A stretch of 64,000 bases of DNA, from the NCBI GenBank assembly GCA_021821465.1, contig JAKACM010000010.1, forward strand, positions 1-64,000. The letters run 5' to 3'. The position numbers were made by a program, and so were the translations under genes. The stretch comes from Bacillota bacterium (lineage in GTDB: Bacteria; Bacillota; Sulfobacillia; Sulfobacillales; Sulfobacillaceae). This document shows, one piece after another, positions 5,275-43,051 of this stretch. Positions within the stretch are counted from its first letter, which is position 1. Each line of letters begins with the position of its first letter. The notes beneath the pieces were generated by a model, which was given only the letters and a program-made list of their open reading frames with translations, had not been told where the DNA came from and did not search any database.

Positions 5275-5352
5275 TGGTGGGCGGTACAGGACTCGAACCT
5301 GTGAACCTCTCGCATGTCAAGCGAGCGCTCTAACCAACTGAGCTAACCACCC
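5275..5352 (-). tRNA. tRNA-Val (GAC)
   Basis: Cloverleaf on the minus strand with acceptor GGGTGGT/ACCGCCC, anticodon stem CTCGC/GCGAG and loop TTGACAT giving anticodon GAC. CCA is encoded. The 3' end faces the accessory module at 1401-5101, the usual side for elements that integrate into tRNA genes. Confidence 0.95.
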
Positions 5353-5359
5353 CTATTTT

Positions 5360-5434
<75 letters not shown>

Positions 5435-5452
5435 TCATCGGCAAGGCAAAAA

Positions 5453-5527
5453 TGGAGCGGAAGACGGGATTTGAACCCGCGACCCTTGCCTTGGCAAGGC
5501 AATGCTCTACCACTGAGCTACTTCCGC
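5453..5527 (-). tRNA. tRNA-Gly (GCC)
   Basis: Acceptor GCGGAAG/CTTCCGC, anticodon stem TTGCC/GGCAA, loop TTGCCAA giving GCC, encoded CCA. First gene of the Gly-Cys-Val tRNA transcript. Confidence 0.95.
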
Positions 5528-9106: not shown

Positions 9107-9182
<76 letters not shown>

Positions 9183-9189
9183 GATTTTA

Positions 9190-9267
9190 TGGCGGAGGCG
9201 ACGGGATTCGAACCCGTGGTCTCATGCGTGACAGGCATGCGTGTTGGGCCAACTACACCACGCCTCC
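9190..9267 (-). tRNA. tRNA-Asp (GTC), copy 1
   Basis: Acceptor GGAGGCG/CGCCTCC, discriminator G, anticodon loop CTGTCAC giving GTC, encoded CCA. Differs from the copy at 9487-9564 by a few bases. Confidence 0.95.
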
Positions 9268-9291
9268 GCGAAATGCAAATCAACGTTACTA

Positions 9292-9320
9292 ATTATCCTT
9301 GAAACCTCTACACTTGTCAA
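9292..9320 (-). promoter_or_regulatory. promoter of the downstream Asp-Phe tRNA pair
   Basis: Minus strand consensus -35 TTGACA (9315-9320), 17-bp spacer, -10 GATAAT (9292-9297), placed between the two Asp-Phe repeats. Confidence 0.85.
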
Positions 9321-9403
9321 CGAACAAAAATTCTCTTTCACCGAACTCTTTGCCACTATAAAACAAAATAAACCACAATCGAAGCGGCGATTCAGCGTCA
9401 AAG

Positions 9404-9479
<76 letters not shown>

Positions 9480-9486
9480 GATTTTA

Positions 9487-9564
9487 TGGCGGAGGCGACG
9501 GGATTCGAACCCGTGATCTCATGCGTGACAGGCATGCGTGTTAGGCCAACTACACCACGCCTCC
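9487..9564 (-). tRNA. tRNA-Asp (GTC), copy 2
   Basis: Acceptor GGAGGCG/CGCCTCC, anticodon GTC, encoded CCA; member of the upstream Val-Asp-Phe transcript. Confidence 0.95.
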
Positions 9565-9576
9565 GTGAGTTCATTA

Positions 9577-9651
9577 TGGTGGGCGGAACAGGTTTCGAAC
9601 CTGTGACCCCCTGCGTGTAAAGCAGGTGCTCTACCGCTGAGCTATCCGCCC
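9577..9651 (-). tRNA. tRNA-Val (TAC)
   Basis: Acceptor GGGCGGA/TCCGCCC, anticodon stem CCTGC/GCAGG, loop TTTACAC giving TAC, encoded CCA. First gene of its transcript. Confidence 0.95.
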
Positions 9652-40864: not shown

Positions 40865-41638
40865 TTAGTCATCCGCCATTCGCCCATGCGTCCAAAAATA
40901 CTCACATTCGTGAATAACACGTTGGGGTTGATCGAGAACAGCCAGATGTTGGCAACGCGGAAGAACTTTCACTTCGCTTCCCCGAATAAGGTGTTGGACT
41001 TCGTCCGCTTCCGCAGCTGGTGTCCGCGCATCTTCCACTCCCACCATGATCAATGTCGGCACATTCACTTGACGAAATACTTCGTCATTGCGCGCTGTAT
41101 AAAATGCCTGCATCGCTTGCAGATATTTCTCTTTATCAACTTGTCCCATTTCGAGAACTAAATTTTCCTTAACTTCGGAGAGTGCATACGTAGAAAGGGT
41201 GGTCTCGGCATAGTTATGCGCAAACTCCTGCATCGTCATATTTTCCAGCTGATGGCGACGGGATTGTATGTCTTCTTCTGCGTGATCAAATCCCCGACTG
41301 GCACCGATCAGAATTAAGGAACGAACCAGAGCGTCCGGATTCAGAGTCGCTACACGACTCATCACCCAACTCCCCAGTGACACTCCTAACAAGTGCGCCG
41401 GCTTATTCGTTTGACGCAAGATGTCTATAGCATCTCCAACCCAGTCGTCTAAAGTCGGATAAAACTCTTCATTGTCTCCAACCCCGCGGGGATCCCACAA
41501 AACCACCGTATAATGACGCGATAGCTGGGTACGAATCCGATGAAACAAAAACTGCCCAAGTCCCAAACTCGGATGCGCCAAGACAACTGTGTCTCCTTCG
41601 CCGAAAACATGGTAGGTAATTCCCCGAATCGTTTTCAT
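40865..41638 (-). CDS. alpha/beta-hydrolase fold protein
   Basis: A 257-residue hydrolase with oxyanion-type HPSLGLG, nucleophile elbow LLGVSLGSW, an acid in VGVEDARTP and His in PRCQHLAVLDQP. The substrate is unknown; the size and cap resemble 3-oxoadipate enol-lactonase or esterase-type members. The ATG at 41636-41638 shares its first base with the stop codon of a 22-codon ORF upstream (TGATG), so its translation may be coupled to that ORF. Confidence 0.8.
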   Translation of the reverse strand: MKTIRGITYHVFGEGDTVVLAHPSLGLGQFLFHRIRTQLSRHYTVVLWDPRGVGDNEEFYPTLDDWVGDAIDILRQTNKPAHLLGVSLGSWVMSRVATLNPDALVRSLILIGASRGFDHAEEDIQSRRHQLENMTMQEFAHNYAETTLSTYALSEVKENLVLEMGQVDKEKYLQAMQAFYTARNDEVFRQVNVPTLIMVGVEDARTPAAEADEVQHLIRGSEVKVLPRCQHLAVLDQPQRVIHECEYFWTHGRMADD

Positions 41639-41706
41639 CAAATTGTGCGGGAAACCTCGGTCTTCAGGCCGGGGCGAGATAGCACGGCAGGCTCTGTCTG
41701 CCCCAT
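41638..41706 (-). CDS. 22-codon leader ORF or displaced protein tail
   Basis: ATG at 41704-41706 with AGAAAGGAG eight bases upstream; the product MGQTEPAVLSRPGLKTEVSR plus two residues ends TGATG over the hydrolase start. The strong ribosome site supports translation. It lies just beyond the IscB remnant, so it may alternatively be part of that element's end. Confidence 0.45.
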   Translation of the reverse strand: MGQTEPAVLSRPGLKTEVSRTI

Positions 41707-41799
41707 TCCCGCTTCTCCTTTCTGTAATACTATCTTGGTGAACGAATACCCATAGCCATCATCCCGCTGAATCCGAATACAGAAGCGATGGGAGATCCC

Positions 41800-42116
41800 T
41801 TAAAGAAGCTGTGAGGCCGTTTTAATGTTGAAATTTCCAGTGATCCGGACCGCCACGTACTGGCCGGCCTTTTTGCCCGTAGAGAACACGACTTTCACTA
41901 GGTCCTCGGTCTGGAACCCCCAAGCGCTTTCGCTTCGTGTCAGATATCCCCGGGGAAAGCCATGCTCCGTGAGGCGTGTGCGTTGGTAACTGCCCCCTCT
42001 CGCCGCGTTAATACTCAAGACGAACCGTTGCCAGTTTTCAACGGCATCGATCCGGATGCTTCTCCGAACAGGGCATAAGAGGTTTCTTGCGCTTGTCTAA
42101 CGCGAACCACGGCCAT
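41800..42116 (-). pseudogene. degenerate IscB (RRXRR/HNH-family RNA-guided nuclease) with internal deletion
   Basis: ATG at 42114-42116 (AAGGAG seven bases upstream) opens MAVV, then after a frameshift FALDKRKKPLMPCSEK, the signature start of IscB proteins. The frame then jumps: DAVENWQRFVLSINAARGG, SYQRTRLTEHGFPRGYLTRS, GFQTEDLVKVVFSTGKKAGQ, VAVRITGNFNIKTA, which is the C-terminal domain of IscB. Everything between, that is the RuvC-I to RuvC-III segments, bridge helix and HNH domain (about 350-400 residues in a complete protein), is missing. No nuclease can be made. Related intact genes belong to IS200/IS605-like ISC elements, and no transposase is seen here. Confidence 0.82.
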
Positions 42117-42316
42117 ATCGTTGCTCCTTCTCCCTTACGGGTCTTGTGACGGGGGCCGTTAGAACGCCTCTCCCCTCGGAAATGTCTGTCATCCGCTCTC
42201 CCCTTTTGGGGACGGCCAGCACCTTCGGTTACCTTTCGCTTGCATGATGCCAACCTTACAGGGTTCGGGACTGAGGAAGCACCCCACAGCGGGGGTAGTA
42301 CCCGCTCTTCTTCCCA
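42117..42316 (-). ncRNA. HEARO / omega-RNA-like sequence of the IscB remnant
   Basis: The ~200 nt directly before the IscB start, between it and the stop of the MocA-like gene, is rich in short stems: CGGGTACTACCCCCGC-type, AACC-CTGTAA-GGTT, GTCCCC-AAAA-GGGGA, ACCC-GTAA-GGG. It carries the segment GAGAGCGGATGACAGAC, which resembles the conserved GCGGATGCCAG region of known omega-RNAs. In IscB loci the guide RNA scaffold is encoded exactly here, and its guide is the sequence 5' to it, which in this case is the end of the MocA-like gene. Assignment rests on position and visual similarity, not on a covariance search. Confidence 0.7.
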
Positions 42317-43018
42317 TCATCCTCTTTTTAAGTTCTTTTCCATTGTTACCGCAGAGCTGTATGCCGCCCTGTAATCTGTGAGCGTATCAATATCGGTTGT
42401 CGGGATGGGACGATCTCTCACACTGTAGTCCACATAACACGCTTCTTGGGTATGTTGTGCCCACAGTGCCCCAAATCCCCGATCTCCCGAAAGTTGCTCT
42501 GCCCAGCTTAACGCTTTTTGATCAAGCATTACCGGGTGGCCGGGAATCTGGTTGTATCGGGGTCGCAGCAAATGGCAATTCGACGGTCTGTTGTCAAAAT
42601 CGGACATCACGTTGCGGATATCCCCACCCAGTACAAAAGGTTCGTCCCCGAGCAATATCGCTGCCGCAGCCTTCGGCCAGTTCTCTTTGAGGAAGGACAC
42701 CGCAAGCTGAATCGAATGCGATATACCATGCTCAGGGCGGTTGTTCAGAACATAATTCACTCGATTGTCATGAATTGTGAGGGGCAGTTCAGGATGGCAA
42801 ACCACCACTAACGGCTGAACGGTTTCATGTAAAAGACGGTTAACGACCGTATCAAAAATCGTTCCGGACGTCCACGGCAAGAGCATCTTCGCCCTTCCCA
42901 ACCGAGTGGACAGTCCGGACGCCAATAACAATATCACAACCAACTGAGAGAAATCATTTTCACGATTCTTCTCATTCAATGATTCTGATGCGATAAATTG
43001 GGTTGTGGAAAAGACCAT
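42317..43018 (-). CDS. MocA/MobA-like nucleotidyltransferase
   Basis: A 233-residue protein with the nucleotide-binding signature LLLASGLSTRLGRAKMLLPW, VVVCHPELPL, and an LLGDEP (metal-binding Asp) motif, then GHPVMLDQKAL and GDRGFGALW. This is the MocA-type family that attaches CMP (or GMP) to molybdopterin for xanthine-dehydrogenase/CO-dehydrogenase-type enzymes. ATG at 43016-43018 with GGAGG eight bases upstream. It follows the CoxG-like gene; its 3' end abuts the IscB element. Confidence 0.78.
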   Translation of the reverse strand: MVFSTTQFIASESLNEKNRENDFSQLVVILLLASGLSTRLGRAKMLLPWTSGTIFDTVVNRLLHETVQPLVVVCHPELPLTIHDNRVNYVLNNRPEHGISHSIQLAVSFLKENWPKAAAAILLGDEPFVLGGDIRNVMSDFDNRPSNCHLLRPRYNQIPGHPVMLDQKALSWAEQLSGDRGFGALWAQHTQEACYVDYSVRDRPIPTTDIDTLTDYRAAYSSAVTMEKNLKRG

Positions 43019-43051
43019 CTTGCGCACCTCCACTTCCCCTCCAAGGTCATG

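Follow-up and report, generated by a model that had tools for sequence, protein, structure and literature searches.

IscB, a nuclease related to the Cas9 ancestor, is an RNA-guided DNA cutter. HEARO RNAs that stand alone have been reported. ATGA and GTGA integration sites were reportedly described already in the HEARO discovery paper, so the ATGA target motif should not be claimed as new. The guide-adaptor hairpin and its neighbouring stems are central in the structure and architecture of the IscB-omega-RNA (PMC9640706), and ATGA/TTGA was measured as the TAM of an IsrB, a relative of IscB, and not as that of the IscB treated here (PMC9581776). Open-access papers on IscB elements and start codons, or on stop/start overlap, were searched for and none were found, the founding HEARO/IscB papers being outside the scope of that search.

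The locus at 41639-42301 (-) of the window (the whole 64,000-nt stretch of DNA that was analysed, from a genome of the Sulfobacillus lineage, G000) is a decayed IscB-type (ISC/HEARO, IS200/IS605-like) element. This focal copy is an ordinary pseudo-element, a relic of a known kind, and the part worth following is the landing of its family at start codons together with the borrowing of stop codons, rather than the relic.

Extent of the element and neighbouring features

A decayed IscB locus had been placed at 41800-42316 by a first-pass annotation made from the sequence; that interval overlaps the element, but leaves out its right end at 41639-41799. The features were assigned as follows, each with its basis:

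41639-42301 (-): whole decayed IscB-type (ISC/HEARO) element, about 663 bp; empty site in three relatives, right end common to other copies
42287-42301 (-): left-end remnant GTACTACCCCCGCTG (in the parents GTCAACTACCCCGCC); similarity to whole copies
42117-42293 (-): 3' part of the HEARO/omega-RNA, which lacks about 83 nt of its 5' half; 84-87% identity to the copy at G000:C98, 12.4-bit HEARO score
42059-42116 (-): IscB N-terminal remnant FALDKRKKPLMPCSEK, ATG at 42116, +1 frameshift after codon 3; direct reading
41644-42054 (-): IscB C-terminal remnant, approximately residues 330-470, TAA at 41800-41802; protein alignment
41639-41740 (-): right end with conserved AAAGGAG, stem GCGGGAA/TTCCCGC and terminal ...AATTTG; comparison of copies
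41638-41706 (-): 22-codon ORF MGQTEPAVLSRPGLKTEVSRTI, AGGAG ahead of it at 41715-41719; any function putative
41635-41638 (-): first 4 nt of the hydrolase gene, at the right-end junction; empty-site alignment and junction comparison
40865-41638 (-): downstream host gene, alpha/beta hydrolase, 257 aa; Pfam Abhydrolase_6
42317-43033 (-): upstream host gene, MobA/MocA-like NTP transferase; Pfam NTP_transf_3
42310-42325 (-): AGAGGATGATGGGAAG, probably the ribosome-binding region that served the hydrolase gene before the insertion, now parted from the ATG; G006 empty-site alignment

The stop codon TGA of the 22-codon ORF and the ATG of the hydrolase gene have one base in common, and orthologues of the hydrolase were present in 7/7 other genomes of the genus. 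The right border is exact, being the same to the base as in other copies. Whole copies begin with GTCAACTACCCC, which in the parent is base 1 of the HEARO model; the left border of the focal copy, placed by similarity to GTCAACTACCCC, is uncertain by a few bases after decay. Elsewhere in the window, two tRNA clusters with eight tRNA genes were located with Rfam (5278-5527 and 9110-9651 (-)).

Insertion site

In three related genomes (G006, G005, G007) the hydrolase gene comes a few bases after the MobA-like gene, with no element between them. With the point of insertion marked by a slash, the empty site of G006 reads AGAGGATGATGGGAAGTGGAA/ATGCAAACG and the window AGAGGATGATGGGAAGAAGAGCG/element/ATGAAAACG; by this alignment, the element sits exactly between the likely ribosome-binding region and the hydrolase ATG, with no target duplication. 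Empty sites were likewise found for two sister copies in G000: C156, whose junctions read ...GGATGAGAA/GTCAGCC...ACAATTGG/ATGAAAATT, lies before wecB, and seven relatives have this site empty; C98 lies before an acetyltransferase gene. The empty sites and the ATGA junctions show the fixed short target and the lack of target duplication that mark IS200/IS605-like elements. The right-end stem GCGGGAA/TTCCCGC is conserved (fold z -0.98 as RNA, -1.59 as DNA). No Y1 (TnpA) transposase gene was found inside the element, and of the eight open ones (>=133 codons) in G000 none was tied to it.

Remnants of IscB and of the omega-RNA

Two peptides had been read as the first and last parts of an IscB, and direct comparison with an intact 472-aa IscB bore this out: 14/16 residues of FALDKRKKPLMPCSEK match its N-terminus, and SYQRTRL...GFQTEDLVK is 65% identical over 75 aa to its C-terminus (E 4e-30). 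In a genus-wide protein search, 41644-42054 (-) was aligned to IscB residues 330-470 with one TAA inside. The first approximately 19 and the last approximately 140 residues are joined, the middle (residues ~20-329, i.e. the end of PLMP, RuvC, the bridge helix and HNH) having been deleted; the frameshifts and the loss of the catalytic domains that had been noted are therefore real, with the +1 frameshift after codon 3, the missing ~20-329 and the TAA at 41800-41802. Instead of PLMP, RuvC (RRXRR) and HNH in one frame, only N- and C-terminal pieces out of frame were left, and these are homologous to IscB and in order, as in a pseudogene; the designation as a decayed IscB locus was right. Pfam gave no significant domain on the fragments, because they are too short. 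Given the frameshift, the deletion of ~20-329 and the premature TAA, there is no reasonable doubt that the predicted IscB protein is dead.

The RNA part fared differently from what had been annotated, namely a locus that keeps its omega-RNA. In the covariance check proposed at that stage, Rfam HEARO (RF02033, curated gathering cut-off 83 bits) gave no match at the curated cut-off in the whole 64,000-nt window and none at E<=10 around the IscB locus. In a whole-genome scan the focal copy reached 12.4 bits (E 8.6; cut-off 83), over model positions 94-126 only. The conserved omega-RNA segment that had been seen upstream is nevertheless genuine, the GAGAGCGGATGACAGAC block being the conserved 3' part of the HEARO RNA, and the upstream DNA is 84-87% identical to the HEARO copy at G000:C98, which itself scores 38 bits. 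Alignment with fuller copies showed that, in the focal copy, the 5' stub GTACTACCCCCGCTG is followed at once by the 3' half, about 83 nt between them being gone; the missing stretch includes the guide-adaptor hairpin and nearby stems, so that the 5' half expected of a HEARO RNA was not found. Folding of the remnant against shuffles revealed no excess structure (z +0.44). That the locus keeps its omega-RNA is hence wrong for the focal copy, because the 5' half is deleted, and the low HEARO score and the fold z agree with this. The remnant is a broken RNA gene, and the focal copy would be inert both as nuclease and as guide RNA.

Intact parent and other copies

The nearest intact parent was found in Sulfobacillus sp. 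clean5091 (G001:C84, L095/L123), with an open 473-codon IscB frame encoding RRXRR and HNH, and an RNA scoring 105.3 bits with HEARO over all 211 positions. A parent was also sought within the same genome as the focal copy: no intact IscB of the focal subfamily was detected in G000, the best being 54% and 34% identical, and such a member could be absent from the data, since G000 is an assembly of 199 contigs (98% complete, 5% contamination).

In G000 (L001-L020), 22 HEARO matches at E<=10 were recorded, many of them IscB-less or decayed copies; near-full open IscB frames were seen in two only (C35, C53), and that of C68 is truncated. Five of the loci (L016-L020) are related copies of about 1.35 kb with a TnpB-like protein of about 430 aa and HEARO scores of 15-20 bits; these were set aside as probably false HEARO matches. 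Full or fuller HEARO RNA and the right end, with little or no IscB, were found in C76 (62 bits), C118 (55 bits) and C98 (38 bits), and the internal deletions differ from copy to copy. Close IscB relatives (60-77% identical; L123, L127, L144, L135) sit in distant acid-mine and acidophile taxa, which suggests horizontal spread.

Junctions at start codons and borrowed stop codons

ATGA was present at nearly all right-end junctions of this element type. In this genome and its relatives, 23/29 right-end junctions adjoin an ATGA in which the ATG is the first codon of an ORF of >=120 aa, and with C98 added, 24/30 lie at an ATGA opening a gene-length ORF. By chance, 13.8% of the ATGA sites in the window open such an ORF (p 4e-15), and 11% of those outside gene interiors are starts (p 8e-13), values that derive from this window alone with a crude gene caller, while a few junctions may be orthologous (e.g. 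L062, L080). Many of the predicted proteins after the junctions begin like known families (WecB, EtfB, glycyl-tRNA synthetase beta, GcvH).

IscB of the intact parents lacks a stop codon of its own: the last codons of the frame cross the right end and terminate at the TGA of the target ATGA (...SRATG, then stop), which gives a 4-nt overlap between IscB and the host gene. Among 80 IscB loci from genome contigs, the same stop borrowing was found in Acidithiobacillus, Nitrospirae and Leptospirillum records. A 4-nt overlap with the next ORF occurred in 15/36 IscB relatives at >=58% identity versus 43/364 other ORFs of the same loci (p 2e-5; 17/62 overall), in statistics that ignore kinship. More distant IscBs stop earlier, and several still have, no more than about 100 nt further on, an ATGA that opens a gene-length ORF. 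Across L123-L202, the IscB stop was often the TGA of a target ATGA/TTGA, 4 nt over the start of the next gene. This stop/start anatomy is established in the intact parents; that the overlap might restore translation of the host gene is a proposal.

Proposed history and alternative readings

With the identity, borders, site and damage of the element established, the preferred reading (probability roughly 0.9) is that an IscB-carrying IS200/IS605-like element inserted ahead of the hydrolase ATGA and then decayed. A whole element of about 1.6 kb would have been inserted before ATGA without target duplication, leaving the ribosome-binding region of the hydrolase gene on the far side; later, most of IscB would have been deleted, a frameshift and a stop would have arisen, and the 5' half of the omega-RNA would have been lost. 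Such elements are presumably moved by a Y1 transposase, with the other strand being read (TCAT beside the right end). IscB, with the sequence left of the element as guide, would cut the empty site beside the ATGA TAM; as the insertion site is a gene start, this guide would be the ribosome-binding region. Deprived of that region, the host gene could rely on reinitiation after IscB for its translation, or translation could start from the right-end block AAGGAG-stem-ACAATTGG-ATG; the focal right end, with its ribosome-binding-like block and the stop over the host ATG, may still let the hydrolase be translated.

Of the three options that the first-pass annotation had offered for the RNA part, a relic is the best supported for the focal copy, IscB and RNA both being broken. 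Its placement in the 3' UTR of the MocA-like gene has in its favour that the remnant follows this gene immediately, in the same orientation; this reading is not needed, because the empty sites in relatives show inserted DNA, and those sites, along with homologous copies at many unrelated loci, refute both it and a chance resemblance, which are left with a negligible probability. Very improbable, too, is a MITE-like, still mobile non-autonomous element that bears RNA, lacks IscB and depends for guidance on an IscB or TnpA in trans. The same-genome copies C76, C118 and C98, with their right ends, RNA and scant IscB, speak for it, as do the empty site of the IscB-poor C98 and the open Y1 genes of the genome, but the left end of the focal copy is mutated and the 5' half of its RNA is gone, the genome holds no intact IscB of the subfamily, and internal deletions that differ between copies are expected of independent decay, not of one short form spreading. 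The option of a nuclease acting in trans thus stands as possible for these three sister copies, which it fits better than the focal copy, but lacks an intact subfamily IscB in the genome; such a role of the focal copy is unlikely.

Compatible with decay, and possible though on balance doubtful, is that the hydrolase gene has kept the remnant as its 5' leader, in which the right-end block (AGGAG, short ORF, stem) would be a replacement ribosome-binding site. The hydrolase ORF is intact and the block exists in the focal copy; AGGAG, an ATG and a frame that ends at the host start codon recur in 13/28 right ends against a shuffle expectation of 0.036 per copy, which is not a fair null because the copies are homologous. 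Conservation of the block could, however, equally have other causes: it sits at the base of the right-end stem, a place at which Y1 transposases are expected to depend on sequence, and in the parents it codes for part of IscB.

Beyond insertion and decay of the focal copy, a broader proposal is put forward tentatively, at somewhat less than even odds: the clade may be specialised for start codons, landing between ribosome-binding site and ATG at ATGA, borrowing a stop and passing ribosomes on via the stop/start overlap or a portable right-end ribosome-binding site, with the ribosome-binding region of the host as guide. The family shows an RNA-guided mobile element landing at gene starts, its nuclease gene possibly stop-less until landing. 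If translation is handed on, the low-cost residence of such elements inside operons would be explained, and the natural guides of these Cas9-ancestor-like nucleases would be ribosome-binding sites.

Comparison with known systems

The closest match is HEARO/omega-RNA (RF02033) with IscB (RRXRR-HNH): the parent scores above the cut-off, encodes RRXRR and HNH, and has its left end at base 1 of the model, whereas in the focal copy IscB is not intact and the RNA does not score as a HEARO. With IscB-less omega-RNA copies and IS200/IS605 deletion derivatives, it shares ends without a nuclease gene and the occurrence of several copies per genome; unlike them, it has lost the 5' half of the RNA as well. 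IStrons resemble the proposed system in that either would make an insertion less harmful to the host gene, but they use RNA self-splicing (PMC4227781), where here a stop/start codon overlap would serve. As in termination-reinitiation at overlapping genes (PMC12548453), the stop codon of one ORF overlaps the start codon of the next; unlike there, the upstream ORF is here a mobile element and its stop codon comes from the target site.
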